From assembly GCA_023264995.1 (NCBI GenBank), contig JAHFUR010000028.1, forward strand, positions 1-55,277: 55,277 nucleotides of DNA. Direction: 5' to 3'. Both the position numbers and the translations under genes were made by a program. Shown here piece by piece: positions 33,743 through 48,091 of this stretch. Position 1 is the stretch's first letter. Each line of letters opens with the position of its first letter. The notes beneath the pieces were generated by a model. That model was not told the DNA's origin and made no database searches. It was given only the letters and a program-made list of their open reading frames with translations. This stretch comes from Acidimicrobiia bacterium. GTDB taxonomy: Bacteria > Actinomycetota > Acidimicrobiia > Acidimicrobiales > AC-14.

Positions 33743-33747
33743 GTCCC

Positions 33748-35763
33748 ATTCCTTCCCGGTTCAGGTACTCGCGCTGGGACGGGACCCAGACCGGCTTCGA
33801 GCTGACGGCCGACGAGGTGCTGGCCCAGGCCACTGACGACCTGGTGTACCACGGCGACGTGCACGCCGCGCTGCGCCGGATGCTCCAGGAGGGCCTGAAA
33901 GACCGCATGGGCGAGCGGATCGCCGGCCTCCGGGAGCTCCTCGAGCGCCTGCGGGAGCGCCGGCGCCAGGAGCTGGCCAACCACGACCTGGGCGGCGTGT
34001 ACGACGACATCGCCAACGAGCTGCGCGAGGTGGTCAGCCAGGAGCGGTCCGCCCTCGACGGCCTCGAGGACGCGGCCCGCCAGTCGGGCGACCGACGCCG
34101 CGAGGACGTGGTCAGTGCGGCCATGGCCGAGCGGCGCATGCAGCTCGACCTCCTCCCGCCCGACCTGGCCGGTCAGGTCCGGTCGTTGCAGGAGTACGAC
34201 TTCGCCTCCGAGCCGGCCCGCCAGCGGTTCGAGGAGCTGCTCGACAAGCTGCGCCAGGAGCTGCTCAAAGGCCAGTTCAACCAGCTCTCCGAAGCCATGG
34301 CCAACACCAGCCCCGAGCAGGTGGCCCGCACCAAGGACATGCTGTCGGCCCTCAACGGGATGCTCGACCAGCAGGCGCGCGGCGAGGAGCCCGATTTCGC
34401 CGGGTTCATGGAGCAGTACGGCGACATGTTCCCCGGCAACCCCCAGACGCTCGACGAGCTCCTGGAGCAGATGGCCCGGCAGATGGCCGCCATGCAGCAG
34501 TTCCTCAACTCCCTGTCGCCCGAGCAACGGGCGCAGCTCAAGGCCCTGTCCGACCAGCTCATGGAGGACATGGACCTGCGCTGGCAGATGGACCAGCTCG
34601 CGCAGCACCTCCGGGAGGCCCGTCCTGACGCCGGGTGGGGGAACAGCTACCAGACCGGGGGGTCGGGGCCCATGGGTATGGGCGAGGCGACGCAGCTCAT
34701 GGACCGGCTCGGCAACATCGACCAGCTCGAGAACCTGCTGCGCTCCGCCGGTGCGCCTGGTGCGCTGGCCGAGGCCGACCTCGAGGTGGCCGCCGAGCTG
34801 CTCGGCCCTGACGGCGCCCGGAGCCTGGAGCGGCTGGCCGAGCTGTCACGGATGCTGCAGGACGCCGGCCTGATCGAGACCAAGGAGGGCCGCCTCGAGC
34901 TGACCCCCCGGGGGCTGCGGGTCGTCGGCCAACGGGCGCTGTCCGACCTCTTCGCCCGGTTGTCGAAGGACCGCCTCGGCCGCCACCAGGCCGAGCGCGA
35001 AGGTCCCGGCCACGAGCGCACCTTCGACTCCAAGCCCTACGAGTTCGGCGACCCCTTCCACCTCGATATCGAGCGCACCATCCGCAACGCCATCGGCCGG
35101 GCCGGCGGCGGCACGCCCGTCCGCCTCGACCCCGAGGACTTCGCGGTGGAGCGCACCGAGGTCCTGACCCGGACCAGCACCGTCCTACTCCTCGACCTGT
35201 CGCTCTCCATGCCCATGCGCGACAACTTCCTGGCTGCCAAGAAGGTGGCCCTGGCCCTTCACGCCCTCATCACCAGCCGCTACCCCCGCGACTACCTGGG
35301 CATCGTGGGGTTCAGCCAGGTGGCCCGACCCCTGCGGCCCGAGCAGCTCCCCGAGGTCTCCTGGGACTTCGTGATGGGCACCAACATGCAGCACGCCCTG
35401 CTCCTGGCTCGCAGGCAGCTGGCCCGCCAGTCGGGCACCAAGCAGGTCATCATGATCACCGACGGTGAGCCCACCGCCCACCTCGAGGCCGACGGCGGCG
35501 TGTTCGTGCAGTACCCGCCGGTGCGGGAGACGGTCCGGGCCACGCTGGCCGAGGTGGCCCGGTGCACGGCGGAGGGCATCCGTATCAACACGTTCATGCT
35601 CGACGCCACCGACCACCTGCAGGCGTTCGTCGAGCGAATGACCCGCATGAACCGCGGCCGGGCCTTCTTCACCACGCCCGAGACGCTCGGCAGCTACGTC
35701 CTGGTCGACTTCCTGGAGCACAAGCGGGCCCAGCGGACCGAGCAGGGCCGGCGCCCGGCCTGA
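33748..35763 (+). CDS. VWA-domain protein paired with MoxR-like ATPase; apparent ATT start
   Basis: The protein has ~671 residues, with a long helical N-terminal region, a helical middle with EADLEVAAELLGPDGARSLE, and a C-terminal VWA domain. The MIDAS residues are in LLLDLSLSMPM (DxSxS), MGTNMQHAL and MITDGEP. A conserved-looking N-terminus, SRFRYSRWDGTQTGFELTAD, lies upstream of the first GTG (33817), and no ATG, GTG or TTG precedes it in frame. ATT 33748, five bases after the ATPase stop and behind a G-rich stretch, is the best start candidate. VWA proteins of this kind act as adaptors for MoxR ATPases. Confidence 0.85.
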   Translation: MPSRFRYSRWDGTQTGFELTADEVLAQATDDLVYHGDVHAALRRMLQEGLKDRMGERIAGLRELLERLRERRRQELANHDLGGVYDDIANELREVVSQERSALDGLEDAARQSGDRRREDVVSAAMAERRMQLDLLPPDLAGQVRSLQEYDFASEPARQRFEELLDKLRQELLKGQFNQLSEAMANTSPEQVARTKDMLSALNGMLDQQARGEEPDFAGFMEQYGDMFPGNPQTLDELLEQMARQMAAMQQFLNSLSPEQRAQLKALSDQLMEDMDLRWQMDQLAQHLREARPDAGWGNSYQTGGSGPMGMGEATQLMDRLGNIDQLENLLRSAGAPGALAEADLEVAAELLGPDGARSLERLAELSRMLQDAGLIETKEGRLELTPRGLRVVGQRALSDLFARLSKDRLGRHQAEREGPGHERTFDSKPYEFGDPFHLDIERTIRNAIGRAGGGTPVRLDPEDFAVERTEVLTRTSTVLLLDLSLSMPMRDNFLAAKKVALALHALITSRYPRDYLGIVGFSQVARPLRPEQLPEVSWDFVMGTNMQHALLLARRQLARQSGTKQVIMITDGEPTAHLEADGGVFVQYPPVRETVRATLAEVARCTAEGIRINTFMLDATDHLQAFVERMTRMNRGRAFFTTPETLGSYVLVDFLEHKRAQRTEQGRRPA

Positions 35764-35764
35764 G

Positions 35765-36262
<498 letters not shown>

Positions 36263-36271
36263 GTGTGGGGG

Positions 36272-36277
36272 ATGGTA
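36272..36277 (-). promoter_or_regulatory. Putative -10 element for the macrodomain gene
   Basis: Minus-strand TACCAT is nine bases before ATG 36262. Confidence 0.4.
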
Positions 36278-36325
36278 CCGGCCCGGCCTTGCGCTCGGGC
36301 CGGATAGGCGCAATGATCACAGAGT

Positions 36326-36335
36326 TGTAATTACA
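36326..36335. promoter_or_regulatory. AT-rich perfect palindrome upstream of whiB
   Basis: TGTAATTACA is a perfect 10-bp palindrome in an AT-rich patch (about 36311-36336) of otherwise very GC-rich DNA. It lies between the divergent macrodomain and whiB starts, about 90 bases upstream of whiB. It is probably a regulator site or promoter core. Confidence 0.45.
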
Positions 36336-36364
36336 TCCGTGGCAGCGACCAGCACTGACCGTTC

Positions 36365-36392
36365 CAGAAGTACTGGCAGTTGCAGAAGCACT
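36365..36392. repeat. Direct repeat pair in the whiB 5' region
   Basis: CAGAAGTACT (36365-36374) and CAGAAGCACT (36383-36392) repeat with an 18-base period in the presumed leader of whiB. They may be a two-site operator or chance. Confidence 0.4.
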
Positions 36393-36427
36393 AGCCGCAC
36401 GACGAGCACGTTGAGGGGAGGCGGCCA

Positions 36428-36718
36428 ATGATGGAGCAGAGGCGGGGACACCGTTTCGACCTCGGGGACCGCAGCTGGCAGGGCCAGGCCAACTGCCTCG
36501 GTGTCGATCCCGACCTGTTCTTCCCGGAGCGGGGCGCATCGACGCGCGAGGCGAAAGGGGTGTGCCGGGGGTGTGTGGTCCGTGAGGACTGCCTCGAGTA
36601 CGCGCTGATCAACGGCGAGAAGTTCGGCATCTGGGGCGGGCTGAGCGAGCGGGAGCGCCGGCGCATCCGCCGCCAGCGCACCGTCGCCCTCCGGCCCGAC
36701 GGAGTGGCGACGGCCTAG
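36428..36718 (+). CDS. WhiB-family transcriptional regulator
   Basis: This 96-residue Fe-S cluster-binding regulator has the four cysteines in the family arrangement (QANC, then VCRGC and REDCLEYAL), the GIWGGLSERERR turn and a basic C-terminal tail. WhiB proteins bind 4Fe-4S and act with the housekeeping sigma factor. The ATG pair at 36428/36431 follows GGGGAGG (36415-36421) at six bases, so this gene is leadered, unlike many neighbours. The long 5' region contains an AT-rich palindrome and a direct-repeat pair. It is the first of two WhiB genes within 4 kb. Confidence 0.94.
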   Translation: MMEQRRGHRFDLGDRSWQGQANCLGVDPDLFFPERGASTREAKGVCRGCVVREDCLEYALINGEKFGIWGGLSERERRRIRRQRTVALRPDGVATA

Positions 36719-36727
36719 TCCCCCTCC

Positions 36728-36746
36728 GGGCCGGCCTCGCCGGCCC
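36728..36746. terminator. Hairpin between convergent whiB and formiminotransferase genes
   Basis: GGGCCGGC and GCCGGCCC form a perfect 8-bp stem with a three-base loop, ten bases after the whiB stop. No T-run follows. A second imperfect hairpin (36773-36806) lies next to it, as expected for a bidirectional stop region in a GC-rich genome. Confidence 0.5.
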
Positions 36747-36772
36747 CGCAGGCTTCCCTGCCTTCCTGGCGG

Positions 36773-36806
36773 CGTCCGAGAGCGAACCACGATCCGCTCC
36801 CGGACG
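36773..36806. terminator. Second hairpin in the convergent gap
   Basis: CGTCCG (36773-36778) pairs with CGGACG (36801-36806), and AGCG (36781-36784) with CGCT (36795-36798), across a two-base internal loop. It ends at the stop of the formiminotransferase gene. Confidence 0.4.
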
Positions 36807-37610
36807 TCAGCCTGGAGGGCTGCCGCCGGCCGGCAGCGCCTTGGCCAGGCTGAGGCCCAGCTCGGCCCACCGCCGGCGCGGCGCCGCATCGAGCACCGCG
36901 GCGGGTACCAGCCCGACCAGCTCGGCCCCCGCCACCGGCGCCCGGGCCGCGACCGCGTCGTAGGCGTCGGCGGGGCCGATCCGGCCGGGGTCCACCAGGT
37001 TCATGGACACCTGGGCCCGCCCGCCCACGTCGAGCCCGAGGGCCCGCAGCGCCGGCCCCCGGATCTCCCGGGCCACCCGGCGGGCGGACGCCACGTCGAC
37101 CCCGTCGGTCAGCCACACGTTGTAGGCCACGAGAACCGGCCGGGCCCCGACGCAGATGGCGCCGGCGGTCGGGTGGGCGACCGGCGGCCCGGTGTCGGGC
37201 GCCAACGCGGTGAACGCCTGCCGGCGTAGGTCAGGGAGGGCCCGCTCCGGCCCGTACAGGAAGCACGGGACGCCCAGCTCGGCCGCGGCCCAGGCGGCGA
37301 AGCGGTCCCGGGCGGCGACGGCATCGGCCATCGAGGCGCCGGCCAGGGGCACGAACGGCACCACGTCGACCGCGCCCATCCGGGGGTGGACGCCCGCATG
37401 GAGGCGCAGGTCGATACGGCGCACGCCCACGCGGGCCACGGCGCGGGCCGCCTGCTCGACGCCGTGGCCTGGGCCGGCCAACGTGAGCACGGACCGGTGG
37501 TGGTGGGGGTCGGTGTGCACGTCGAGGAGCCAGGCGCCGCCCGCCGCCGCGATGGCGTCGATCACCGCACGGTCGCGTCCCTCGCTCACGTTCACCACGC
37601 ACTCCAACAC
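36807..37610 (-). CDS. Glutamate formiminotransferase-like protein
   Basis: This 267-residue protein matches the N-terminal plus C-terminal formiminotransferase subdomains that move the formimino group from formiminoglutamate to tetrahydrofolate. It has the start VVNVSEGRDRAVIDAI, DVHTDPHHHRSVLTLAG, LHAGVHPRMGAVDVVPFVPL with the catalytic His region, CVGARPVLVAYNVWL and RAQVSMNLVDPGRIG. The cyclodeaminase domain found in fused enzymes is absent. No histidine-degradation genes are nearby, so a role in general one-carbon supply is possible. GTG 37610, followed at once by TTG, is the likely start; it is divergent from the LLM gene. Confidence 0.88.
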   Translation of the reverse strand: MLECVVNVSEGRDRAVIDAIAAAGGAWLLDVHTDPHHHRSVLTLAGPGHGVEQAARAVARVGVRRIDLRLHAGVHPRMGAVDVVPFVPLAGASMADAVAARDRFAAWAAAELGVPCFLYGPERALPDLRRQAFTALAPDTGPPVAHPTAGAICVGARPVLVAYNVWLTDGVDVASARRVAREIRGPALRALGLDVGGRAQVSMNLVDPGRIGPADAYDAVAARAPVAGAELVGLVPAAVLDAAPRRRWAELGLSLAKALPAGGSPPG

Positions 37611-37618
37611 GTCCCCCG

Positions 37619-37624
37619 TAATCT
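37619..37624 (+). promoter_or_regulatory. Putative -10 element for the LLM oxidoreductase gene
   Basis: TAATCT is nine bases before ATG 37634, in a 23-base divergent gap. Confidence 0.4.
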
Positions 37625-37633
37625 CGCGCGGGC

Positions 37634-38623
37634 ATGGACATCGGGCTGGCGCTGCCGCACTACGACTTCTCGGTGCCCGGGGAGTCGCCCTTGCGGTGGG
37701 AGACGTTGGTGGGGTGGGCCGAGCGGGCCGAAAGGCTTGGTTTCGGTTCGGTCTGGATGTCCGACCACCTGTTCCTCGACGTCAGCCGGTACGGCGCCCC
37801 GGCCGGCGACCACGGGTGCTTCGACCCATTGCCGGCGCTGGCGGCCATCGCCCGGCGGACCAGCCGGGTGCGCCTCGGGACGCTGACCCTGTGCGGCCCG
37901 CTGCGCCCGGCCGCCATCCTGGCCAAGGCCCTCGCCACCCTCGACGTGGTGTCCGGCGGTCGCCTGACCGCCGGCCTCGGCGCCGGCTGGTACGAACCGG
38001 AGCTGGCCGCCGCCGGGCTGCACCTCGAACCCCCGGCCGTGCGGTTGGCCCGGCTGGCCGAAGCGGTGCAAGTGGTGCGGGGCATGTTCGGCGGGGGCCC
38101 GTTCACCTTCGACGGCCGCTACGAGCGGGCCGACAAGGCTCGCTGCCAGCCCCGGCCCGTGCAGCGCCCGGCACCGCCGGTGTGGGTGGGGGGTAAGGGC
38201 GACCGCTTGATCGACCTGGCCGGGCGCCACGCCGACGGCTGGAACACGGCCTGGATCTGGACGCCTGAGGCGTGGGCCGAGCGGGGGGCCCGGCTCGACC
38301 GGGCCTGCGAGGCGGCCGGGCGGGACCCGGCATCGGTGGCCCGCTCCGTGGGGCTCTACGCCCTGGCCGGCGAGAACGAGGCCGACCTGGCCCGCCGGTA
38401 CCGGCGCCTCCAGGAACAGTCTCCCCCGGGTGTGCTCGACGGCGTCGAGCTGGCCGAGTGGCGCACCGGGCGTCTCGTCGGGACCGTCGACGAAGTGACC
38501 GACCAGGTCCGGCGCTGGGAGGCCCTGGGGGTGTCCAGCCTGGTCCTGACGGTGGGTGCTCTTCCCTTCGCGGTGACGAGTGCCGACGACGTGGAGTTGC
38601 TGGCCGATGCCTGTAGGCTGTGA
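37634..38623 (+). CDS. LLM-class (F420-type) oxidoreductase
   Basis: This 329-residue luciferase-like TIM-barrel protein shows MDIGLALPHYDFSVPG, LGFGSVWMSDHLFLDV, RTSRVRLGTLTLCGPLRPAA, ATLDVVSGGRLTAGLGAGWY, PVWVGGKGDRLIDLAGRHAD and GWNTAWIW. These match the F420-dependent branch common in actinobacteria; FMN use cannot be excluded. The substrate is unknown. The gene is followed by tatA after three bases, with the tatA -10 inside the last codons, so tatA can be transcribed both from its own promoter and by read-through. Confidence 0.88.
   Translation: MDIGLALPHYDFSVPGESPLRWETLVGWAERAERLGFGSVWMSDHLFLDVSRYGAPAGDHGCFDPLPALAAIARRTSRVRLGTLTLCGPLRPAAILAKALATLDVVSGGRLTAGLGAGWYEPELAAAGLHLEPPAVRLARLAEAVQVVRGMFGGGPFTFDGRYERADKARCQPRPVQRPAPPVWVGGKGDRLIDLAGRHADGWNTAWIWTPEAWAERGARLDRACEAAGRDPASVARSVGLYALAGENEADLARRYRRLQEQSPPGVLDGVELAEWRTGRLVGTVDEVTDQVRRWEALGVSSLVLTVGALPFAVTSADDVELLADACRL
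38614..38619 (+). promoter_or_regulatory. Putative leaderless -10 element for tatA
   Basis: TAGGCT lies within the last codons of the LLM gene and is seven bases before ATG 38627. Confidence 0.5.
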
Positions 38624-38626
38624 GCC

Positions 38627-38884
38627 ATGGGTGGTATCGGAGCACCAGAGCTCATCATCTTCCTGCTGGTCATCCTCCTGCTGTTCGGATCCACCAAGCT
38701 GCCGAAGCTGGCCAAGTCGCTCGGTGAGGCCCAGAAGGAGTTCAAGAAGGGCATCGCCGAGGCCGAGGCGGAGCCCGTGAAGCCGGCGGGCGAGGAGAAG
38801 GTCACGATGACCAAGGCCGAGCTCGACGCCATGCTGGCCGAGCGTGAGGCCCAGGCCCGCAGAAACAACCCTCCTTCCGTCTAA
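38627..38884 (+). CDS. tatA: Twin-arginine translocase subunit TatA
   Basis: This 85-residue protein has one N-terminal TM helix (ELIIFLLVILLLF), the hinge FGSTKLPKLAKSLGEAQKEF and an amphipathic helix, followed by an acidic charged tail. It is the pore-forming component for export of folded proteins. The short tail and FG-x-x-KLP signature fit TatA/TatE better than TatB. The sigma factor gene follows after 33 bases. In mycobacteria the sigE-rseA-htrA-tatB genes cluster, which this locus recalls. Confidence 0.92.
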   Translation: MGGIGAPELIIFLLVILLLFGSTKLPKLAKSLGEAQKEFKKGIAEAEAEPVKPAGEEKVTMTKAELDAMLAEREAQARRNNPPSV

Positions 38885-38895
38885 TCAGGGAACCC

Positions 38896-38911
38896 GACGG
38901 CTGCGGCCGTC
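38896..38911 (+). terminator. Hairpin between tatA and the ECF sigma gene
   Basis: GACGGC and GCCGTC form a perfect 6-bp stem with a TGCG loop, followed by GTTCTC. It may end tatA transcripts. GGAAC at 38889-38893 followed by CGTT 17 bases later (38911-38914) could instead be an ECF-type promoter overlapping the hairpin, but that would start transcription at or just inside the sigma gene. Confidence 0.4.
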
Positions 38912-38917
38912 GTTCTC

Positions 38918-39418
38918 GTGTCGGGTAGTGGGATCCCCACCTGGGAGGAAGTCGCTCGCGAGAACGGGCGCTTCCTATACACGGTGGCCTACCGCCTGAC
39001 CGGCAATTCCGACGACGCGCAGGATCTGGTGCAGGAAGTGCTTCTCAAGGTGCGAAAAGGCCTGGAGACCTACCGGCCGGGCTCATTGGAGGGGTGGTTG
39101 AGCCGCATCACCACCAACACGTTCCTCGACGAGGCTCGGCGCCGCCAGCGCCGGCCGGTCGACCTGCTCCCGGAGGAGCCCGACCGCGTCGTGCCGCCCA
39201 GCCCGGGCGCCGACGTGGCCCTCGCGGCCGAGGCCCTCCCCGACGACGTCCAGGGCGCGTTGCGCGGCCTGCCCGAGGAGTACCGGGCGGCGGTGGTGAT
39301 GTGCGACGTGGTCGGGCTGTCCTACCAGGAGATCAGCGATTCTCTCGAGGTGCCCGTCGGCACCGTGCGCAGCCGCATCCATCGCGGGCGCGCCCTGCTC
39401 CGCAAGGCACTGGCATGA
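38918..39418 (+). CDS. ECF RNA polymerase sigma factor (SigE/RpoE-like)
   Basis: This 166-residue sigma-70 family protein has region 2 at about residues 15-85 (FLYTVAYRLTGNSDDAQDLV, QEVLLKVRKGLETYRPG, WLSRITTNTFLDEARRR). Region 4 follows at about 110-160 (ALRGLPEEYRAAVVMCDVVG, LSYQEISDSLEVPVGTVRSR). The downstream anti-sigma factor overlaps it by ATGA, the classic arrangement for an envelope-stress ECF pair. The GTG start is the only reasonable one. Neighbouring tatA, and an htrA-type gene 5 kb away, suggest a SigE-like regulon. Confidence 0.94.
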   Translation: MSGSGIPTWEEVARENGRFLYTVAYRLTGNSDDAQDLVQEVLLKVRKGLETYRPGSLEGWLSRITTNTFLDEARRRQRRPVDLLPEEPDRVVPPSPGADVALAAEALPDDVQGALRGLPEEYRAAVVMCDVVGLSYQEISDSLEVPVGTVRSRIHRGRALLRKALA

Positions 39419-39915
39419 GCACCCGGTTCGGGGCCAACGGCCCCGGCGGTCCCGCCCATCTGGGCGACGCGCTGAGCGGGCTGCTCGACGGGGAGCTGCC
39501 CGGCCACCAGGAGGACTGGGCCCGGGCCCACCTGGCCGTGTGCACGGACTGCACCAGGGAGCTGGCCGCCGTCGGGCAGGCCCGGGCGTGGGTCCGAGCC
39601 CTGCCGCCGGTCGACCCCCCGTTCGGCTTCTACGAGCGGATGCTGCGCGACCCCTCGCTGGCCTCCCGGCCACCGGCCATCGGCAGCGCACCGTTCGGTG
39701 CCAGCCGGGCCACGTTGCGCCGCCGAGCGGGGTGGGCCGCCCTGGGGGCGGCGGCGGCCGCGGTCACCGTGCTCGGCGTGGGGTCGCCCACCGAGCCGCC
39801 GCTCAACCCGGCCGTCCCCCGCCTGGTCCAGGCCCGCGCCGCCCGCACCACGGTGGGCGCCGACCTGATGAGCAAGCTGGCGCCCGTGGCCGTACCCGTC
39901 TCCTTCGGCCGGTAG
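39415..39915 (+). CDS. Anti-sigma factor with zinc-finger domain (RseA-like)
   Basis: This 166-residue protein has an N-terminal ZAS-type zinc finger (about residues 15-50) with His-x3-Cys-x2-Cys in RAHLAVCTDCTREL. A cytoplasmic linker and one possible TM segment (about 104-124, GWAALGAAAAAVTVLGVG) follow, with a short exterior tail. It should sequester the upstream ECF factor until stress. It is translationally coupled to the sigma gene, ensuring matched amounts. The overall size and plan fit mycobacterial RseA/RsrA-type proteins. Confidence 0.9.
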   Translation: MSTRFGANGPGGPAHLGDALSGLLDGELPGHQEDWARAHLAVCTDCTRELAAVGQARAWVRALPPVDPPFGFYERMLRDPSLASRPPAIGSAPFGASRATLRRRAGWAALGAAAAAVTVLGVGSPTEPPLNPAVPRLVQARAARTTVGADLMSKLAPVAVPVSFGR

Positions 39916-39931
39916 AACGGGGCGGCCCGGC

Positions 39932-40183
39932 CTACCGGCCGGCGGCTGCGGCGACGCGCTCCAGGCGCCGGCGGCGGGCGATGCGCCGGCGTTCGCGCTC
40001 GGAGGCGCCGCCCCAGACACCGTGGTCGATGCCGTTGCGCAGGGCGTACTCGAGGCAGGGATCCTTCACGGGGCACGTCGCGCAGATGCGACGGGCGACC
40101 TCGACGCCCACGCCGTCGCTCGGGAAGAACACTGACGGTGCTTCGCTCCGGCAGTTGCCTTCCGCCATCCACTCGTTGTCCAT
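39932..40183 (-). CDS. WhiB-family transcriptional regulator (second copy)
   Basis: This 83-residue WhiB protein shows GNCRSEAPSVFFPSDGVGVE, ICATCPVKDPCLEYALRNG with the Cys-x2-Cys-x5-Cys arrangement, DHGVWGGASERERRRIARRR and a basic tail. ATG 40183 is supported by GGAGGG just upstream on the minus strand. It is convergent with the anti-sigma gene, 16 bases apart. It is clearly diverged from the WhiB at 36428, so this is not a recent duplication. Ligand Cys count and spacing look intact. Confidence 0.93.
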   Translation of the reverse strand: MDNEWMAEGNCRSEAPSVFFPSDGVGVEVARRICATCPVKDPCLEYALRNGIDHGVWGGASERERRRIARRRRLERVAAAAGR

Positions 40184-40322
40184 TGGCCCTCCTCGTCGGG
40201 CTTCCGCTCTGAACAACGGGGTGCGCCCAGAAGTGGTTCCCTCACTCTTTCCTACGGAGGAGAAGACGTCCGTGGATCGGCGAAAGTTTCAGCGTGCACC
40301 GGGGGGGCCGACCGGGGGGCGG

Positions 40323-40328
40323 TAGCCT
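40323..40328 (+). promoter_or_regulatory. Putative leaderless -10 element for the 96-residue protein
   Basis: TAGCCT is six bases before ATG 40335. Confidence 0.5.
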
Positions 40329-40334
40329 GGCCTC

Positions 40335-40625
40335 ATGGCCCAGGCACCCGAAGAACTCGAGGCACCCCAACCGCCGCGCGGGCACGTGCGGGTCGTGTAC
40401 CTCGGCCCCGTCGCGCCGCATTGGCAGGTGGTCTCCGACTTCGGCGACCGCAACACGATCGACGAGCTCAGCCAGCGCATCCTGGCCCGGCTGCTCCTGC
40501 TCCCGCCCCACGACCCCCAGTTCCGCCGCAACCGTGAGCGCGTCGTGCGGGACGCCGAGCGGGAGAACATCCTGCTCGACTGGGACCTCGGGCTTCCCGA
40601 AGAGGAAAGTTCCGAGCCGACCTAG
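40335..40625 (+). CDS. Small conserved hypothetical protein
   Basis: This 96-residue soluble protein has a Pro-rich start, a beta strand HVRVVYLGPVAPHWQVVSDF and a helical part IDELSQRILARLLLLPPHDP. A charged C-terminal segment (RNRERVVRDAERENILLDWD) follows. I do not recognise a domain, but the regular alternation and leaderless -10 argue for a real gene. It sits between whiB and the SenX3-like kinase, 50 bases upstream of the latter. Confidence 0.65.
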   Translation: MAQAPEELEAPQPPRGHVRVVYLGPVAPHWQVVSDFGDRNTIDELSQRILARLLLLPPHDPQFRRNRERVVRDAERENILLDWDLGLPEEESSEPT

Positions 40626-40662
40626 CCGGGCGACCAACCACCACCGGCCGTTGGCCGCCACC

Positions 40663-40668
40663 TATGGT
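40663..40668 (+). promoter_or_regulatory. Putative leaderless -10 element for the SenX3-like gene
   Basis: TATGGT is seven bases before ATG 40676. GGGGGAG between them could alternatively act as a Shine-Dalgarno sequence, but it would be very close. Confidence 0.4.
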
Positions 40669-40675
40669 GGGGGAG

Positions 40676-41989
40676 ATGCCACTGTCGAACACTGACGCCG
40701 TGGTCGTCGCGGTGGCGGCGGGTGTGGTGCTGGTGGCGGTCCTCTGGGTCCTTCTGTCCCGGCGGGGGACGGCCCGGAGGCTGGCCGCCCTCACCGCCCG
40801 GATGGGCGAGTCCGACCTGCAGTTCGGTGGCCGCGCCGGCCTGGAAACGGGCCTGGCCAAGCTCGAGCGGGTCGTCGACAGCACCGTCGCCGTGGCCAGT
40901 GAGGCCCGTTCGGCCCAGTCGCTCCTCGAGGAGGCGCTGGCTGCGGTCCCGCAGGGTGTGGTCGTCGGCAACGACCAGGGCGAGGTGGTCTTCCAGAACG
41001 CGGCCGCCGCCACGCTCCTTCGGGGCGGCGCCAACAGCGCCCGGGCCCGGGACACGGTGCTCAGCCTGCTTGCCGCCGCGGCCGAGGGCCGGGCCAACGC
41101 CGCGCCGGTCGAGGTCGACGGGCCGCCGCCCCGCACGCTGCACTTGCAGGCCTCGGCCTTGCACGACGAGCACCGGACCCTCGGCGGCATCGTCGTGATC
41201 GACGACCGTTCCCAACTCGACCGCCAGGACACGGCGCGCCGGGAGTTCGTCGAGAACATCGGCCAGGAGCTCAAGCGCCCGGTGGGCGCCCTCGGCCTGC
41301 TGGCGGAGACACTGGCGGCGGAGAAGGACCCGGCGGTGGCGGCCCGACTGTCCCGCCGCCTGCAGAACGAGGCCCAGCGGGTCGGGCGGGTGGTCGACGA
41401 CCTCATGCTGCTGTCCCGGATGGACGCCGAGGAGCACGCCGCGGCCGAGGCGGTGCCCGTCCACCTGATCGTGGCCCAGGCCGCCGAACGGGTCCGGGCC
41501 GCGGCCCTCGACAAGGACATGACGGTGAACTTCGGCGAGCCGGCCCAGCGCCTGTCGGTGATGGGGGACCGCCGCCAGCTCGTGGCCGCGGTGTACAACC
41601 TGCTCGACAACGCGGTGAAGTACTCGCCGGCCCGGTCGGTGGTGGAGGTGCGGGGCCGCCAGGGCGGGGCGTGGGTCGAGCTCAGCGTGAAGGACCAGGG
41701 CATCGGCATCCCCGAGACGGACCGGGAGCACATCTTCGAGCGCTTCTACCGGGTCGAGGGAGCGCGGGCCCGTCACCTCGGTGGCACCGGGCTGGGCCTG
41801 GCCATCGTCCGCCACGTCGTCGGGAGCCACGGCGGTGCCGTACGGGTGGAGTCCGAGGAGGGCCGCGGGTCCACGTTCGTCGTCCGTCTTCCCGCCGGAC
41901 CGCCTCTCGCCGCCCCGGCGCGTGCCGAGCCGGCGCCTCCGGGGCGGGGCCCGGCGACGGTCCCGGCCCGAGCGAGCCGAGTGGGCTGA
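40676..41989 (+). CDS. SenX3-like sensor kinase homologue lacking the phospho-acceptor histidine
   Basis: This 437-residue protein has one TM at about residues 7-27, a PAS-like region (about 85-185), and a dimerisation and H-box region reading RREFVENIGQELKRPVGALG. Related kinases have His at the position that is Gln197 here (codon CAG, 41264-41266). The ATPase domain looks intact: N box YNLLDNAVKYSP, DQGIGIP, FERFYRVEG and GGTGLGLAIV. It may be a pseudokinase or a phosphatase-only partner. No regX3-like response regulator lies next to it; an MFS gene follows instead. ATG 40676 fits the leaderless -10. Confidence 0.88.
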   Translation: MPLSNTDAVVVAVAAGVVLVAVLWVLLSRRGTARRLAALTARMGESDLQFGGRAGLETGLAKLERVVDSTVAVASEARSAQSLLEEALAAVPQGVVVGNDQGEVVFQNAAAATLLRGGANSARARDTVLSLLAAAAEGRANAAPVEVDGPPPRTLHLQASALHDEHRTLGGIVVIDDRSQLDRQDTARREFVENIGQELKRPVGALGLLAETLAAEKDPAVAARLSRRLQNEAQRVGRVVDDLMLLSRMDAEEHAAAEAVPVHLIVAQAAERVRAAALDKDMTVNFGEPAQRLSVMGDRRQLVAAVYNLLDNAVKYSPARSVVEVRGRQGGAWVELSVKDQGIGIPETDREHIFERFYRVEGARARHLGGTGLGLAIVRHVVGSHGGAVRVESEEGRGSTFVVRLPAGPPLAAPARAEPAPPGRGPATVPARASRVG

Positions 41990-41999
41990 GCCAAGCTCC

Positions 42000-42005
42000 T
42001 ACGAT
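42000..42005 (+). promoter_or_regulatory. Putative leaderless -10 element for the MFS gene
   Basis: TACGAT is six bases before GTG 42012. The same hexamer and spacing precede the DUF2342 gene at 44494. Confidence 0.5.
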
Positions 42006-42011
42006 GGCCCG

Positions 42012-43325
42012 GTGGCGCCCCCTCCCACGGACGCCGGGTGGCAGCCGCTGCGCCGGCCACCCCGGACCGGAGGCCCCCTCGGGCTGAGCCGGTCGGCCTT
42101 TTCCCGGCTGGCCGTGGTCCACATCCTGGCCATCGCCGGCGACACGCTGGTGACAATGGCCCTGGCCGGGTCGCTGTTCTTCTCCATCTCCCCCGGCGCG
42201 GCCCGTGGCCGAGTGGCCCTCTACCTGCTCCTCACGGTGGCCCCGTTCGCGGTGGTGGCCCCGCTGCTCTCGCCGGTGATCGACCGCAGCCGGGGCGGCC
42301 GGCGGGCGCTCGTGATCGCCAGCGCGGCCAGCCGGGCCATCGTCTGCCTGTCGATGGCCACCCACCTCGACGGTCTCATGCTCTTCCCCGAGGCCTTCGC
42401 CGTGCTGGTGCTGTCGAAGACCCACATGATCACCAAGAGCGCCCTGGTACCCGGCACCGTCGCCGGCGAGGGCGAGCTGGTGGCGGCCAACTCGCGCCTG
42501 GCCGTGCTGTCGGTGCTGGCCGGGTTCGCGGCCGCCGTCCCCGGGGTCATCGTCCTGAAGCTCGGTTTCCTGGGCGCACCCTGGGTCGTGCGCCTGGCCG
42601 CACTGACCTTTGCCGCCACCGCGCTGGCCGGGTTCCGCCTGGTCCGACCGGTTGCCGGCGACGATCAGCTGGCCCCGATCGCCGTCGCCGAGGCCGAGTT
42701 GCACACCGCGTCGGTGCGGATGGCCGCATCAGCCATGGGCGTGCTGCGGGCCGTGGTCGGGTTCCTCACCTTCCTGGTGGCCTTCGCCTTCCGCCACGAC
42801 AACGCCCCGGCGTGGTGGTTCGGCATCGTGCTGGCCACCAGCATGGCCGGTTCGTTCGTGGGCGCGGCCGTCGCGCCCCGGCTCCGCCGGGGCCGCGTCG
42901 AGGAGCGGATCCTGCAGGGGTCGCTGGCCCTCGTGGTCGCGGCGGGGCTGGGTGCGGTCTGGCTCGGCGGCCGGCCGGCGGCGGCCCTACTGGCCGGCGC
43001 GGTCGGGGTGGCCGCCGGCGCCGGCAAGCTGGCGTTCGACAGCATCGTGCAGCGTGACGCGCCCGATGCCCTGCAGGGCCGGATCTTCGCCCGCTTCGAG
43101 ACCCGGTTCCAGCTGGCATGGGTGGTGGGAGCGGCCCTCCCCGTGGCCGTCCGCATCCCGAGCGGCGCCGGCATGGGCCTGCTGGCCCTGACCGCGGCCG
43201 TCGCCCTCTCGTCGTACCTGGCCGGGCTCCGGGCCCTCGACCACCACCGCGTCCTGCCGCCGCCCGTGGCCGGCGCCCGTGCCCGTGCCCGGCGCTGGGG
43301 CCGGGGAGCGCCGCCCCCGGGCTAG
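42012..43325 (+). CDS. Major facilitator superfamily transporter
   Basis: This 437-residue polytopic membrane protein has about twelve hydrophobic segments, a soluble Pro-rich N-terminus of about 30 residues, a charged loop after helix 2 (SPVIDRSRGGRRALVIASA) and a central loop near residues 215-240. It resembles drug or metabolite exporters of the MFS; the substrate is unknown. GTG 42012 is chosen because it fits TACGAT six bases upstream and avoids overlapping the kinase gene. The stop TAG shares CTAG with the convergent DUF2342 gene. Confidence 0.82.
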   Translation: MAPPPTDAGWQPLRRPPRTGGPLGLSRSAFSRLAVVHILAIAGDTLVTMALAGSLFFSISPGAARGRVALYLLLTVAPFAVVAPLLSPVIDRSRGGRRALVIASAASRAIVCLSMATHLDGLMLFPEAFAVLVLSKTHMITKSALVPGTVAGEGELVAANSRLAVLSVLAGFAAAVPGVIVLKLGFLGAPWVVRLAALTFAATALAGFRLVRPVAGDDQLAPIAVAEAELHTASVRMAASAMGVLRAVVGFLTFLVAFAFRHDNAPAWWFGIVLATSMAGSFVGAAVAPRLRRGRVEERILQGSLALVVAAGLGAVWLGGRPAAALLAGAVGVAAGAGKLAFDSIVQRDAPDALQGRIFARFETRFQLAWVVGAALPVAVRIPSGAGMGLLALTAAVALSSYLAGLRALDHHRVLPPPVAGARARARRWGRGAPPPG

Positions 43326-44494
43326 ATGTCGGGCAGGTCGATCCGGGCCAGCCAGAGCCCCGGGGCGTCGAGCTCGGCCGGGGTGGGGAGCTCCCGCTCG
43401 GTGGCCCAGAGCCGGGCCAGCCCGTCGTCGCCGGCGCGTTCGACCACCCCGCGCACGAAGGTCGCGCCCCGCTCGTACTGGCCCCGGCCCAGCTCGAGGC
43501 CCAGCAGGCGGGCGGCGAAGCGCTCGCCGTCGGTGGCCTCGACGCGGCGCCGGCGCAGGGCCTCGGCCAGCTGGCCGTAGGAGCCGATCAGGCCCCGGCC
43601 GGTGGTGTCCATGACATAGTCGACGTACCCCTCGATCACCGCGGTGAGGGTCTCGATGCGGGTGAGCGTCTCCTGTTGGCCGGGCGAGCGCATGGCGCCG
43701 AGGAGCGTCTCGGGGTTGCCGAGCACGGCTTGGAGCCCGGCCGCGTCGGTGGGGTCGAGGTTGCCCAGGCTGGCTTCGAGGGCCTCGGGGTCGACTTCGA
43801 AGCGGCTGACGTACTCGTTGATCAGCGCCTCGAGCCGGGCCCGCACGTGGGGCCGGCCGAGGATGGCGTGATGGGTGACCTCCTGCAGGCACACCCACAT
43901 CCGGAAGTCGTCGGGGACCAGGCTCCACTCGGCGGCGAAGGCGTCGAGGTTGGCCGGGACGACCAGGAGCTGGTCGGCCGGGAGGCGGGGGAGGGGCAGG
44001 TCGTACTGGCCGAGGGCCCGGCGGGCCAGGTGGCCCATCATGAAGCCCGACTGCATGCCGAGCAGGACCGGGCCGAGCATCTTGCCCAGGTCGCCCAGAA
44101 GCTGGGTGGCGGCGTCGGCCGGGCCGCCGTCGTCGCCGGCGGCGGAGAGCGACGTGGCCAGGCGCTCAAGGAACGGCCGGTAGGCCTCGATGCTGTGCAG
44201 GGCCCAGTCGCCCCGGCTGACGGGCAGGATGCTGAGGATCCCGCCGGCGATCGACGTGTTCAGGCCCGTGGTGGCGCTGACCTGGAGGTCGGCCACCCGG
44301 ACCAGCTCCTCGAGGCGGATGCGCTCGAGCGGGTCGACGTTGGGTTCGGGCTGGCCGTCGGTGGCCAGCCAGGTGGCCGTCTGGCGGGCAACGTCCCAGT
44401 TCACCGGCCCCTGCTTGCTGAACATACGGGCCAGATCGCCGAACATCGGCAGGCCCTCGAACGGATTGCCGCCTTCGGGGCCGATGCTGCTCAC
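43322..44494 (-). CDS. DUF2342 / zinc-dependent metalloprotease-like protein with altered HExxH
   Basis: This 390-residue actinobacterial DUF2342 family protein, sometimes listed as coenzyme F420 biosynthesis-associated or metalloprotease-like, has LVRVADLQVSATTGLN, QSGFMMGHLARRALGQYDLP, DFRMWVCLQEVTHHAIL and LTAVIEGYVDYVMD. Relatives as I know them carry HEVTH; here the first His is Gln204 (CAG), leaving QEVTHH. The second His and the distal Glu in EGYVD are present. Either metal binding is lost or a shifted His is used. GTG 44494 has TACGAT six bases upstream. Confidence 0.85.
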   Translation of the reverse strand: MSSIGPEGGNPFEGLPMFGDLARMFSKQGPVNWDVARQTATWLATDGQPEPNVDPLERIRLEELVRVADLQVSATTGLNTSIAGGILSILPVSRGDWALHSIEAYRPFLERLATSLSAAGDDGGPADAATQLLGDLGKMLGPVLLGMQSGFMMGHLARRALGQYDLPLPRLPADQLLVVPANLDAFAAEWSLVPDDFRMWVCLQEVTHHAILGRPHVRARLEALINEYVSRFEVDPEALEASLGNLDPTDAAGLQAVLGNPETLLGAMRSPGQQETLTRIETLTAVIEGYVDYVMDTTGRGLIGSYGQLAEALRRRRVEATDGERFAARLLGLELGRGQYERGATFVRGVVERAGDDGLARLWATERELPTPAELDAPGLWLARIDLPDI

Positions 44495-44500
44495 CGGCTC

Positions 44501-44506
44501 ATCGTA
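44501..44506 (-). promoter_or_regulatory. Putative leaderless -10 element for the DUF2342 gene
   Basis: Minus-strand TACGAT is six bases before GTG 44494. Confidence 0.5.
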
Positions 44507-44521
44507 GGCCGCAGTGGCACG

Positions 44522-45700
44522 CTACGAACCCGGCGGGCGCTCGGCGATGGTGACCTTCATGGCGTGGCGTTGGTCGTCGCGGACGACCTCGATTGTGCAC
44601 ACGTCACCGGGCCGGTGGGACCGCACGGCCACGACGAGCATCCCCATCGACGTCACCGGGGCCCCGTTCATGCTCACGATGACGTCGCGAGCCGTCATGC
44701 CGGCCCGTTCGGCCGGGCTGTCGGTCTTCACCCGCTCGACCAGCGCCCCGCCGTCGACGTGGAGGGTCTGGGCGGTGGCGCCGTCGAGATCGCTGCCTTC
44801 GACCCCGAGCCACACGGTGACGACCTTGCCCGTGGCGATCAGCTGTTCGGCCGCCGACTTGGCTGCCTCGACCGGCGTGGCGAAGCCGAAGCCCTCGGCC
44901 CCCGTGTCGGTCATGGCCACCGCGGTGGTGATGCCGATCACCCGGCCGCCGGCGTCGAGCAGGGCGCCTCCCGAGGACCCGGGCGCGATGGGGGCGTCGG
45001 TCTGCACCATGTCCATCAGGCTCTGGCCCGTGCGGGTGCGGACCCAGCGGTGGAGGGCGCTGACCACGCCGACGGTGACCGACGGCCCGCCGCTGAGCCC
45101 GAGCGGCGACCCGATGGCGATCGCTTCCTGGCCCACCTTCAGGTCGGTGGTCGAGCCCAGCTCGATGGCCGGGTACGGGCCACCCTCGATCTTGACCACG
45201 GCGATGTCGGAGTCGGTGTCCGACCCGAGGATGCGAGCCGCCACCTCCCGACCGGTGGCCAGGACGGCGGTGACCGACGTGGCGCCCTCGACGACGTGGG
45301 CATTGGTGAGCACATGCCCGTCGCTGCGGAAGATCACGCCCGAGCCGCTGACGCCGCGACCCTTGTCCACCTTGAGCTGCACCGTTGCCGGCCGGGCCCG
45401 GTCGGCGATGGAGACGATGTCGGCCCGGGCGCCGGCGAGGCTCGGGACCGGGAGCACGCCGCTGGTGCTGGCCCCCCGGCCGTTCCCGTCGCCGGCGTGG
45501 AGCAGGTTGCCGGCGAGCACGGCCAGGCCGGTCGACAGCAGGCTGGCGGCGAGGGCGGAGGCCAGGCCGACGGCCCAGAGCTGGCGCCGGCCCGATGGCC
45601 GCGGCAGGCCGATCTCGGAGGGGTGCCGCCACACGCGGTCGTCGGGAGCGGGCAGCTCACGGTACCGGTGCGGTTCGTCATCCGGCTCGACGAACTCCAT
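44522..45700 (-). CDS. HtrA-like serine protease with PDZ domain
   Basis: This 392-residue membrane-anchored protease of the S1C family has a cytoplasmic tail (about 1-40), one TM (about 41-63) and a trypsin-like domain with the triad H135 (TNAHVV), D165 (SDIAVV) and S243 (GSSGGAL). A C-terminal PDZ domain follows (about 290-385; LVERVKTDSPAERAGM and DVIVSMNGAPV). It degrades or refolds envelope proteins. In mycobacteria such a protein is encoded with sigE-rseA; here those are about 5 kb away. ATG 45700 is the true start. It is divergent from moaE, with TAAGGT eight bases upstream. Confidence 0.92.
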   Translation of the reverse strand: MEFVEPDDEPHRYRELPAPDDRVWRHPSEIGLPRPSGRRQLWAVGLASALAASLLSTGLAVLAGNLLHAGDGNGRGASTSGVLPVPSLAGARADIVSIADRARPATVQLKVDKGRGVSGSGVIFRSDGHVLTNAHVVEGATSVTAVLATGREVAARILGSDTDSDIAVVKIEGGPYPAIELGSTTDLKVGQEAIAIGSPLGLSGGPSVTVGVVSALHRWVRTRTGQSLMDMVQTDAPIAPGSSGGALLDAGGRVIGITTAVAMTDTGAEGFGFATPVEAAKSAAEQLIATGKVVTVWLGVEGSDLDGATAQTLHVDGGALVERVKTDSPAERAGMTARDVIVSMNGAPVTSMGMLVVAVRSHRPGDVCTIEVVRDDQRHAMKVTIAERPPGS

Positions 45701-45708
45701 CGAGATCC

Positions 45709-45714
45709 ACCTTA
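45709..45714 (-). promoter_or_regulatory. Putative leaderless -10 element for the HtrA gene
   Basis: Minus-strand TAAGGT is eight bases before ATG 45700. Confidence 0.45.
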
Positions 45715-45750
45715 CGTGGCTGGTCCCACCGGCGGACTTCGCCCCGCCGG

Positions 45751-45756
45751 TAGGAT
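45751..45756 (+). promoter_or_regulatory. Putative leaderless -10 element for moaE
   Basis: TAGGAT is eight bases before GTG 45765. It is divergent to the element at 45709-45714. Confidence 0.45.
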
Positions 45757-45764
45757 CCCCCCCC

Positions 45765-46238
45765 GTGGGCCTCGACCCCCCGTACGGCCGGGACGACTGG
45801 GTGGGCGTCACCGCCGACACCCTGCCTGCCGTCGCGGCCCTGGCCTTCGTCGAGCGCCCGGGCTGCGGGGCGTCGGTCATGTTCACCGGGATGGTGCGCG
45901 ACCACTCCGAGGGCCGGCCCGGCGTCAGTTCCCTCGAGTACGAGGCGTTCGACGAGGAAGTCACGCCCCGGCTGGCCGCCATCGCCGCCGAGGCCCGGTC
46001 GCGGTGGCCGGTGCTGGGCCGCCTGGTCCTCCTGCACCGCACCGGCGCTCTGGCCGTGGGCGACGCCTCGGTGGTGGTGGCCGCGTCGGCCCCGCACCGG
46101 GCCGAGGCATTCGACGCGGCCCGCTTCTGCATTGACACCCTGAAGGCCACCGTGCCGATCTGGAAGCGCGAGTCGTGGGAAGGTGGCGAGGACTGGTCGG
46201 CGTGCGCCCACCCTGTCGGTGAGGTGCCTCGGTCATGA
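45765..46238 (+). CDS. moaE: Molybdopterin synthase catalytic subunit
   Basis: MoaE, 157 residues, transfers sulfur from MoaD to precursor Z to make molybdopterin. It shows VERPGCGASVMFTGMVRDHS, SLEYEAFDEEVTPRLAAIA, VLLHRTGALAVGDASVVVAA, PHRAEAFDAARFCIDTLKAT and VPIWKRESWEGGEDW, including the catalytic lysines. No moaD or other molybdopterin genes are visible nearby. GTG 45765 agrees with the -10 element; an open frame further upstream is antisense to htrA. The stop overlaps the next gene as ATGA. Confidence 0.94.
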   Translation: MGLDPPYGRDDWVGVTADTLPAVAALAFVERPGCGASVMFTGMVRDHSEGRPGVSSLEYEAFDEEVTPRLAAIAAEARSRWPVLGRLVLLHRTGALAVGDASVVVAASAPHRAEAFDAARFCIDTLKATVPIWKRESWEGGEDWSACAHPVGEVPRS

Positions 46239-46537
46239 ACGCCCTGCTCTTCCTCGGGATCGCTGCGGGTCTCAGCGCGGTCGGGTGCCTGGTCCTCTGG
46301 CTGCGCAGCCGCCAGCCGGGGTCGATGGAGGCCCACATCCGGGACTTCGCCCGCGAGCTGGACGCGCTGGCGCCAGGACCGCCGCTCGACCGCTTGCGCG
46401 GCCGGGGCGGGTCGCGCGACGAGGGCGACGCGGCGCCGGCGCCCCGCAGGCCCCCGGCCCGGCCGGCCCGGCCGCCGGCGGAGGGCACCGGGCCCGGCGG
46501 GCCCTCCGAGCGCGGAACGGGGCGCCACCCTGGCTAG
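46235..46537 (+). CDS. Small single-TM protein of unknown function
   Basis: The 100-residue protein has one N-terminal hydrophobic helix (ALLFLGIAAGLSAVGCLVLW), a short charged helix (MEAHIRDFARELDAL) and a disordered Pro/Arg/Gly-rich C-terminal half. It is coupled to moaE by ATGA, and its last eight bases overlap the start of the mreB-like gene. The topology resembles small membrane adaptors; position suggests a link with the actin-like protein that follows. No family is recognised. Confidence 0.7.
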   Translation: MNALLFLGIAAGLSAVGCLVLWLRSRQPGSMEAHIRDFARELDALAPGPPLDRLRGRGGSRDEGDAAPAPRRPPARPARPPAEGTGPGGPSERGTGRHPG

Positions 46538-47534
46538 GGACCTCGCCATCGACCTCGGGACGGCGAACACCCTCGTCTACGCCAAGGGCAAGGGCATCGT
46601 GCTCAACGAGCCCACGGTCATCGCCCTCAACGTCGAGACCCACGACGTGCTGGCCATGGGCCACCAGGCCTGGCAGATGATCGGTCGCACGCCCGGCTAC
46701 ATCCAGGCCGTGCGGCCCCTGCGCCAAGGGGCCATCACCGACTTCGAGATCACCCAGCGCATGATCCGCCTCCTGCTCCAGCGGGCCGGCCTGTCGCGCT
46801 TCCAGCGACCGCGGGTGCTCCTGTGCGTGCCGTCGGCGATCACCGAGGTGGAGCGCCGGGCGGTGAAGGAGGCGGCCCGCCAGGCTGGCGCCATGGACGC
46901 CCAGCTCGTGGCCCAGCCCATGGCCGCGGCCATCGGCGCCGGCCTGCCCATCCACGAGCCACTGGGCAACCTCATCGTCGACATCGGCGGCGGCACGTCG
47001 GAGACGGCCATGATTTCCCTGGGCGGCATCGTCGCCCTGGAAGCCATCCGAGTGGGCTCCTTCGACATCGACGCCTCCATCCAGGCCTTCGTCCGCCGGG
47101 AGTACGGCATGGCCATCGGCGAGCGCACCGCCGAGGAGATCAAGCTGGCCATCGGCTCGGCGGCGCCGGTGGCCGATGACGTGAAGGCCGAGGTCCGCGG
47201 CCGCGACCTCATGAGCGGCCTCCCGAAGACGGCGATCCTGTCGCCGGAGGAAGTCCGCGAGGCCATCGACGAGAACGTTCGCGCCATCGTCGAGTCGGTC
47301 ATCAAGTGCCTGGGCCACGCCCCGCCCGAGCTGGCCCAGGACCTGATCCAGCAGGGGATCCACCTGGTCGGAGGCGGGGCCATGCTGCGGGGCTTCGACC
47401 AGCGCCTGGCCGAGGAGACCGAGCTCCCGGTGCACCTGGTGGAGGCGCCGCTGGAGTGCGTCGTGCTCGGCGCCGGCAAGTGCCTCGAGGCCTTCGACTC
47501 GCTCAAGGTCCTGTTCATGGGGGCCGAGCGGTAG
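46530..47534 (+). CDS. mreB: MreB-like actin homologue; apparent CTG start
   Basis: This 334-residue bacterial actin organises peptidoglycan synthesis or a related cytoskeletal task. Phosphate-1 motif ARDLAIDLGTANTLVYAKG begins right at the CTG (46530). Phosphate-2 LIVDIGGGTSETAMISLGG and the adenosine motif LVGGGAMLRGFDQRL are present. The first GTG in frame (46599) would delete the ATP-binding loop, and no ATG, GTG or TTG exists upstream, so a CTG start with a G-rich stretch seven bases ahead is proposed. mreC, mreD and rodA are absent nearby. Length is normal from CTG. Confidence 0.9.
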   Translation: MARDLAIDLGTANTLVYAKGKGIVLNEPTVIALNVETHDVLAMGHQAWQMIGRTPGYIQAVRPLRQGAITDFEITQRMIRLLLQRAGLSRFQRPRVLLCVPSAITEVERRAVKEAARQAGAMDAQLVAQPMAAAIGAGLPIHEPLGNLIVDIGGGTSETAMISLGGIVALEAIRVGSFDIDASIQAFVRREYGMAIGERTAEEIKLAIGSAAPVADDVKAEVRGRDLMSGLPKTAILSPEEVREAIDENVRAIVESVIKCLGHAPPELAQDLIQQGIHLVGGGAMLRGFDQRLAEETELPVHLVEAPLECVVLGAGKCLEAFDSLKVLFMGAER

Positions 47535-47653
47535 CAGGCCGTATCACGGGGCCCTGAATGGTGCTCGTTACCCATGCCAGGGACACCTGGGGGCGGCACC
47601 CGACCATCGGTCATCGCCCCGACGGAGCGCACAGACGAGAACAGGAGAAGACA

Positions 47654-48082
47654 GTGGCGGAGCACCCCAACGTCGCCCGGATCCGGCGCGGCTATGAGAT
47701 CCGTGGTGAGTCGACTGATTTCAGCGACAGTGACCGGGCCGAGATCGAAGACCTCTTCGACCCCGACCTCGTCTACCACGGGCAGGGCACGAGCAAGTTC
47801 GCCCAGGACTTCCGGGGCCGTGACCAGTTCTTTGCCGTCGAGCGGCAGTTCGCCCGGTTGACCGGGATGCGCCAGGAAGTCCGGCAGATCTTCGCCGACG
47901 ACGTCCACGCCATCGTGATCGCCGAGGTCCATGCCGAGCACGAGGGCAAGGTGACCCGCTGGAGCGAGGCCGAGGTCTTCCACTTCGGCGCCGACGGGCG
48001 GGTTACCGATACCTGGGGCATCCCGGTCGACCAGGTCGTCGTCGACGACTTCTGGTCGAGCGTTATCCCCGCCAACGCGTAG
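47654..48082 (+). CDS. SnoaL-like / NTF2-fold protein
   Basis: This 142-residue cone-shaped alpha+beta barrel protein is of the SnoaL/NTF2 type: VARIRRGYEIRGESTDFSDS, IEDLFDPDLVYHGQGTSKFA, RDQFFAVERQFARL, AIVIAEVHAEHEGKVTRWSE and VFHFGADGRVTDTWGIPVDQ. The fold binds small hydrophobic molecules or acts as an isomerase or cyclase; the ligand is unknown. GTG 47654 is preferred because AGGAG lies six bases upstream; an upstream ATG would add 32 unconvincing residues. The 119-base gap before it holds no other gene. Confidence 0.8.
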   Translation: MAEHPNVARIRRGYEIRGESTDFSDSDRAEIEDLFDPDLVYHGQGTSKFAQDFRGRDQFFAVERQFARLTGMRQEVRQIFADDVHAIVIAEVHAEHEGKVTRWSEAEVFHFGADGRVTDTWGIPVDQVVVDDFWSSVIPANA

Positions 48083-48091
48083 CGGGCCGGG

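Follow-up and report, generated by a model that had tools for sequence, protein, structure and literature searches.

A gene related to senX3 at positions 40676..41989 (+) of the stretch of DNA analysed here (55,277 nucleotides, referred to as the window) reads CAG, for glutamine, at the codon where related histidine kinases encode the phospho-acceptor histidine. This raises the question of what such a protein may do once its acceptor is gone. The closest relative with a name (L042, 84% identity) places the window in the Acidimicrobiales. The codon, at 41264..41266 (+), lies within an H-box of NIGQELKRP, as a preliminary description of the locus had stated and as was confirmed from the sequence, and is followed at 41276..41278 (+) by CGC, which places arginine four residues after the acceptor position (H+4). 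Glutamine was found at the acceptor site in all three genomes of the genus (own included), and arginine at H+4 was likewise common to the three, with threonine being the rule at this position elsewhere. An identical NIGQELKRP occurs in the other two genomes of the genus, in proteins that are 81 and 84% identical to the window copy; thus, a sequencing error was rejected as the source of the CAG. Histidine was present in all 10 of the other kinase H-boxes read in the own genome, these 10 being taken from 39 other kinase matches, one of which is a fragment devoid of an H-box. The longest open frame spans 40664..41989 (+) and encodes 441 residues. The ATG at 40676 is probably the true start, since aligned relatives mostly open with MxL, like the MPLSN of this protein, and GGGGGAG is found upstream of that ATG; the start given in the preliminary description is thus probably right. 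Residues are numbered from 40664 throughout, which makes the glutamine residue 201 (197 if counted from 40676).

Apart from the H-box, the product was found to have the parts of a sensor kinase. HisKA (PF00512) was matched at residues 191-256 with 40.9 bits (gathering score 26.9) and HATPase_c (PF02518) at residues 301-411 with 109.4 bits (gathering score 26.4). Based on these profiles and a predicted model, the DHp helices were assigned to residues 183-255 (41210..41428, +) and the CA domain to residues 262-411 (41447..41896, +), the latter with its ATP-site motifs present, as the preliminary description had reported. They read NLLDNAVKYS (N box), KDQGIGIP (G1), IFERFYR (F), and GGTGLGLAIV (G2). 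A putative membrane helix at residues 9-31 (40688..40756, +) was supported by a hydropathy of 3.1 over 19 residues and by a helix in the model. A PAS-like domain at residues 98-181 (40955..41206, +) was assigned from the succession of strands and helices that the model shows; the Pfam profile search gave no PAS match in the protein. The model had a mean pLDDT of 74.6 and a pTM of 0.57, with pLDDT below 50 for the membrane helix and for some of the ATP lid, and over its DHp-CA part it matched solved kinases as well as DivL. Of the 77 distant matches (L045-L121), 30 were used, solely in the structure alignment. Scores fell short of the NCBIfam equivalog cut-offs of PnpS (235.6 of 400 bits), PhoR (234.4 of 334.2 bits), and WalK (218.4 of 725 bits).

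The surroundings of the gene were compared with those of its relatives. In the relatives' locus, regX3 lies directly behind senX3, phoU is often in front, and genes for an MFS-like protein and a zincin-like metallopeptidase follow further on; in one case (L127) a surE-like gene, named by eye, is located between phoU and senX3. Some relatives additionally have, on the left of senX3, a WhiB-family gene and a 96-aa open reading frame. The window locus has (i) on its left, the WhiB-family gene (39932..40216, -; PF02467) and the 96-aa frame (40335..40625, +), for which the Pfam and NCBIfam searches gave no match; and (ii) on its right, the MFS-like gene (42012..43325, +) and the zincin-like metallopeptidase gene (43322..44494, -; PF10103). 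Where present in relatives, the product of the 96-aa frame is 67-89% identical. Both regX3 and phoU are absent from the window locus, and no RegX3 match was detected in window positions 33001-50000 (tblastn, E up to 1e-8), in agreement with the earlier remark that no response regulator is adjacent. These shared neighbours, together with the tree described below, identify the window gene as orthologous to the senX3 of the relatives' locus, and the spread of the fuller locus (regX3 and phoU present) among relatives suggests that it is the ancestral arrangement. The preliminary description had also placed an MFS transporter behind the kinase and proposed that the kinase might control it. A gene is indeed found there, though its MFS assignment is weak (PF07690 at 23.1 bits against a cut-off of 33.4). 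The proposed control is unsupported: since many relatives have this MFS-like gene and the zincin gene behind a histidine-bearing senX3-regX3, the adjacency represents an inherited neighbourhood. Elsewhere in the window, the sole tRNA call was a tRNA-Thr with anticodon agt (27837-27932, +), perhaps a false call; this anticodon is unusual for tRNA-Thr in bacteria.

Loss of the histidine was found to extend beyond the genus and to coincide with loss of the adjacent regX3. Among 149 loci in a first table, 148 could be scored at the acceptor position (138 H, 4 Q, 4 A, 1 Y, and 1 D), and a further copy without the histidine, with residue E, was detected in genome G098. The related copies were then tabulated for an adjacent RegX3, defined as a match above 150 bits located from 100 bases before to 600 bases behind the kinase end on either strand; only in L167 was the adjacent RegX3 on the opposite strand. 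This table of 152 copies comprised the best-scoring places among the matches listed and those from targeted searches (families with histidine-less copies and chosen genomes), excluded L253 (G076), which a contig end truncates, and is a non-random sample in which 11 of 152 is not to be read as a frequency. The histidine was kept in 129 of 129 copies with an adjacent regX3 and lost, to Q, A, Y, D, or E, in 11 of 16 copies without one; the remaining 7 had less than 0.8 kb of downstream sequence, were unscorable for RegX3, and all have the histidine. Fisher's exact P-value for this association was 4e-13, a calculation that takes no account of relatedness. In L165 and L347, the D and the E, respectively, occur in strongly diverged H-boxes. 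An MFS-like gene was detected within about 4 kb behind 10 of the 11 histidine-less copies, and none in the stretch of the G098 copy. Five copies, in G087, G000, G002, G055, and G130, keep the histidine and lack an adjacent regX3. The orphan of G087, which is the only SenX3 match of its genome, retains both the histidine and the H+4 threonine and differs at just 1 of the 82 conserved positions; the RegX3 of that genome is located elsewhere, within a pst cluster. The orphans of G055 (L168) and G130 (L345) keep the histidine and have lost both the H+4 threonine and D365, a residue behind the F box; these two are candidate kinase-only intermediates by their residues.

All 11 genomes with a histidine-less copy were found to encode a second copy that bears the histidine. 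In the own genome this second senX3 is located on contig C31 with an H-box of SHELRTP, followed by phoU, pstS, pstC, a pstA-like gene, pstB, and a RegX3 gene whose product is 82% identical to the query; for the histidine-bearing copies of G000 and G002, the RegX3 belongs to the same cluster, about 6-7 kb further along. The genus histidine-bearing copies have no N-terminal hydrophobic helix, in contrast to the Q copy, and the helix is absent from 10 of 11 histidine-bearing copies of one clade (L160, L156, L159, and others). The active SenX3 is presumably soluble in several families. In the f10/f30 clade, all six copies have the N-terminal helix. Contig C4 carries another pst cluster, which includes phoU and a different RegX3 (76%); the only SenX3 match nearby is a 3′ fragment. 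This fragment of a third senX3 (G000:C4, locus L218, 13144-13410, -) covers the CA part only and is at most 89% identical to the other copies; reading three frames upstream revealed no DHp half. Besides L218 (G000), second pst clusters that have phoU and RegX3 and no complete SenX3 alongside in the stretches fetched were observed at L219 (G002), L220 (G001), and L221 (G005). We considered the C4 RegX3 as a relocated partner of the window kinase and found this to be unsupported, as G005 has that RegX3 type beside an intact senX3-regX3.

Phylogenetic trees were used to estimate how often the histidine had been lost. In a tree of 51 chosen rows, from which the H-box columns were removed, the histidine-less label required 4 changes, with the starred branches forcing at least 3. 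None of 200 bootstrap trees reduced the label to 1 change, although the bootstrap had not settled. An earlier tree of 62 rows with 7 histidine-less copies needed 2 changes, and its starred branches forced only 1. The genus Q copies grouped with the histidine-bearing L124/L125 (support 99/97). A single clade of all 11 histidine-less copies was rejected (p-AU 0.008), which rules out a single ancient histidine-less paralogue and implies at least two independent losses. Two losses are thus firm on the basis of these trees, and three or four are likely; the count above two rests on branch support, since one clade of the 10 copies other than G098 was not rejected (p-AU 0.107). Retention of the Q copy by selection, described below, together with more than one loss of the histidine among related bacteria, suggests that the protein acts as a non-phosphorylating regulator, possibly of the active sister kinase.

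By its substitution rates, the Q copy is kept by purifying selection in the genus. Its dN/dS was 0.18-0.20 at a dS near 0.6, the frames are open in the three genomes, and the corresponding dN/dS values were 0.15-0.29 for the genus histidine-bearing copy and 0.09-0.12 for RegX3. By region, pN/pS was 0.14-0.18 in DHp and 0.15-0.25 in CA, with the PAS region evolving fastest (0.34-0.47). In family f10, the histidine-less copies are somewhat less constrained (dN/dS 0.26-0.45) than the histidine-bearing ones (0.14-0.35). Residues N316, D344, G346, G348, F358, G374, G376, and G378 were kept in all 11 histidine-less copies, and the ATP site is complete in the genus, N312, N316, and K319 included. N312 was replaced in 7 of the 11, being kept only in the genus and G098, while D365 was changed in all 10 that have a residue there (genus included) and the H+4 threonine was lost in 9 of 11 (kept in L146 and L229). 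Over 82 conserved positions, in a comparison that excludes L179 and L253, the window protein departed at 11 and the 137 histidine-bearing copies at a mean of 1.7 and a maximum of 12; among the histidine-less copies, L165 (31/82) and L347 (23/82) were strongly diverged. Some constraint has thus been lost, given the changes at D365 and the 11 departures of the window protein. The residues at H+7, +11, and +12, positions that set partner choice, are G, L, and L in the window protein. These are the commonest residues of histidine-bearing copies and were kept in 8 of 11 histidine-less copies (absent in 3).

From these data we conclude that the gene product is, as predicted from its sequence, a membrane-anchored pseudo-histidine-kinase. 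The preliminary description had named a pseudokinase, a phosphatase, or an allosteric sensor as candidates; the first and the last are supported as candidates, and the feature is conserved in related genomes. HisKA phosphatases need threonine four residues after the histidine, and with arginine at this position in all three genus genomes the phosphatase role is unsupported. That interpretation therefore held in part, and it had missed the pst-linked SenX3, the loss of regX3 and phoU, and the histidine loss in other families. Our best explanation, which we hold with slightly better than even confidence, is that the window gene is the orphaned senX3 of the locus and that its product tunes the phosphate response as a pseudokinase through the pst-linked SenX3 or through RegX3. 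An old phosphate-sensing locus would have lost regX3 and phoU with senX3 left behind, and phosphotransfer would be carried by the second, histidine-bearing senX3 linked to the pst cluster. The Q protein presumably still dimerises via DHp and still offers a RegX3-type docking face. It may (i) heterodimerise with the soluble pst-linked SenX3, which would recruit that kinase to the membrane and alter the balance between its kinase and phosphatase activities; or (ii) dock RegX3~P without dephosphorylating it. The input would be supplied by its diverged PAS-like domain. The choice of SenX3/RegX3 as the partner is suggested by ancestry and gene content. In Mycobacterium smegmatis, SenX3 is reported to respond to phosphate via PhoU and its PAS domain, with membrane localisation dispensable (PMC12301784), which fits a soluble active copy. 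Points against this explanation are the membrane helix of the f10 histidine-bearing partner, the somewhat faster evolution of the f10 histidine-less copies, the changes at D365 and the 11 departures of the window protein, the 3 histidine-less copies without G, L, and L, and the H+4 threonine kept in L146 and L229. It is less likely than not that the explanation extends to the order, with loss of the adjacent RegX3 in the presence of a second SenX3 repeatedly converting the older, membrane-bound SenX3 into a partner that cannot be phosphorylated and that serves the active SenX3 when the cell responds to phosphate; this regulatory layout would have evolved several times.

Other explanations were weighed against this one. 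The complete ATP site of the genus would be expected if the Q copy used its CA domain to phosphorylate the histidine of the pst-linked SenX3 within a heterodimer, making it a working kinase devoid of its own acceptor, and for the FasB/FasC heterodimer one member's kinase domain has been proposed to phosphorylate the histidine of the other (PMC12675982). Replacement of N312 in 7 of 11 and of D365 in 10 of 10 histidine-less copies speaks against such trans-phosphorylation, which we regard as unlikely. The same ATP site might instead serve a normal kinase phosphorylated at another residue. This is very improbable, as the first DHp helix has no other histidine near the site and the H+4 threonine and the residue preceding the acceptor have also changed.

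The protein may alternatively have left the phosphate system for an unrelated partner, such as a different kinase, the MFS-like protein, or the product of some other neighbouring gene. The absence of RegX3 and PhoU nearby and the divergence of the PAS-like domain are in line with this, and the MFS-like frame could begin at 42012, only 22 bases past the kinase stop, so that a shared transcript is possible. However, the histidine-bearing senX3-regX3 of relatives has the same MFS-like and zincin genes behind it, the histidine-less copy of G098 had no MFS match in 12.5 kb, and G, L, and L were retained in 8 of 11 histidine-less copies; a change of partner of this kind is accordingly judged improbable. 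A relic, in which the gene decays after loss of its partner with Q among the first faults, would agree with the greater departure of histidine-less copies at conserved positions, as in L165 and L347. We consider this quite unlikely and the pseudogene reading disfavoured by the sequence comparisons, given the low dN/dS, the open frames in three genomes, the constraint on parts that include DHp and CA, and the eight ATP-site residues shared by all 11 copies, which span several families. Tuning of the phosphate response by an orphaned pseudokinase thus remains our preferred reading.

To our knowledge, few pseudo-histidine-kinases are known, and their origin is seldom visible. The present case is of interest mainly because orphaned copies lost the histidine repeatedly and because intermediates and a control can be seen alongside them. 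One order shows the apparent stages, from a paired kinase to an intact orphan (G087), to copies with the histidine but not the H+4 threonine (G055 and G130), and to histidine-less copies with the ATP site kept; the losses arose independently at least twice, a natural control exists, and what selection keeps once phosphotransfer is gone becomes testable. Should the proposed partner be correct, phosphate sensing in the order would gain an added layer. No description of a SenX3/PhoR pseudokinase or of an Acidimicrobi SenX3/RegX3/PhoU case was found among the titles and abstracts listed from an open-licence library.

When compared with known systems, the window protein shares with SenX3 of the mycobacterial SenX3-RegX3 pair the order of membrane helix, PAS-like domain, HisKA, and HATPase_c, and the relatives' copies of its locus are senX3-regX3, often with phoU. 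It differs in having no acceptor histidine, H+4 threonine, or adjacent regX3 or phoU. We base the name SenX3 on the RegX3/PhoU context, the trees containing no mycobacterial SenX3. DivL of Caulobacter, with tyrosine for histidine, likewise combines the HisKA kinase fold with a substituted acceptor, and the solved DivL (4q20) was among both the sequence and the structure matches. Its sequence match is the more distant one (2e-22) and ranks after those of other kinases, and the trees contain no DivL. DivL is described as having neither kinase nor phosphatase activity and as binding and sensing DivK~P (PMC4211667); the window protein belongs to another lineage and circuit. FasB and FasC of group A Streptococcus form a kinase-like heterodimer in which one member is a proposed pseudokinase, yet FasC keeps its histidine and has a dispensable kinase domain, the window protein being the reverse (PMC12675982). 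In Corynebacterium glutamicum, a ChrS pseudokinase is reported to raise output via its paralogue HrrS, and native, but not truncated, ChrS to heterodimerise with HrrS in a two-hybrid test. As proposed here, one of two paralogous kinases is inactive and the other drives phosphotransfer (PMC9491836). The inactive ChrS arose from a laboratory-evolved frameshift in CA with the histidine kept, whereas the window protein displays a natural loss of the histidine with CA kept.
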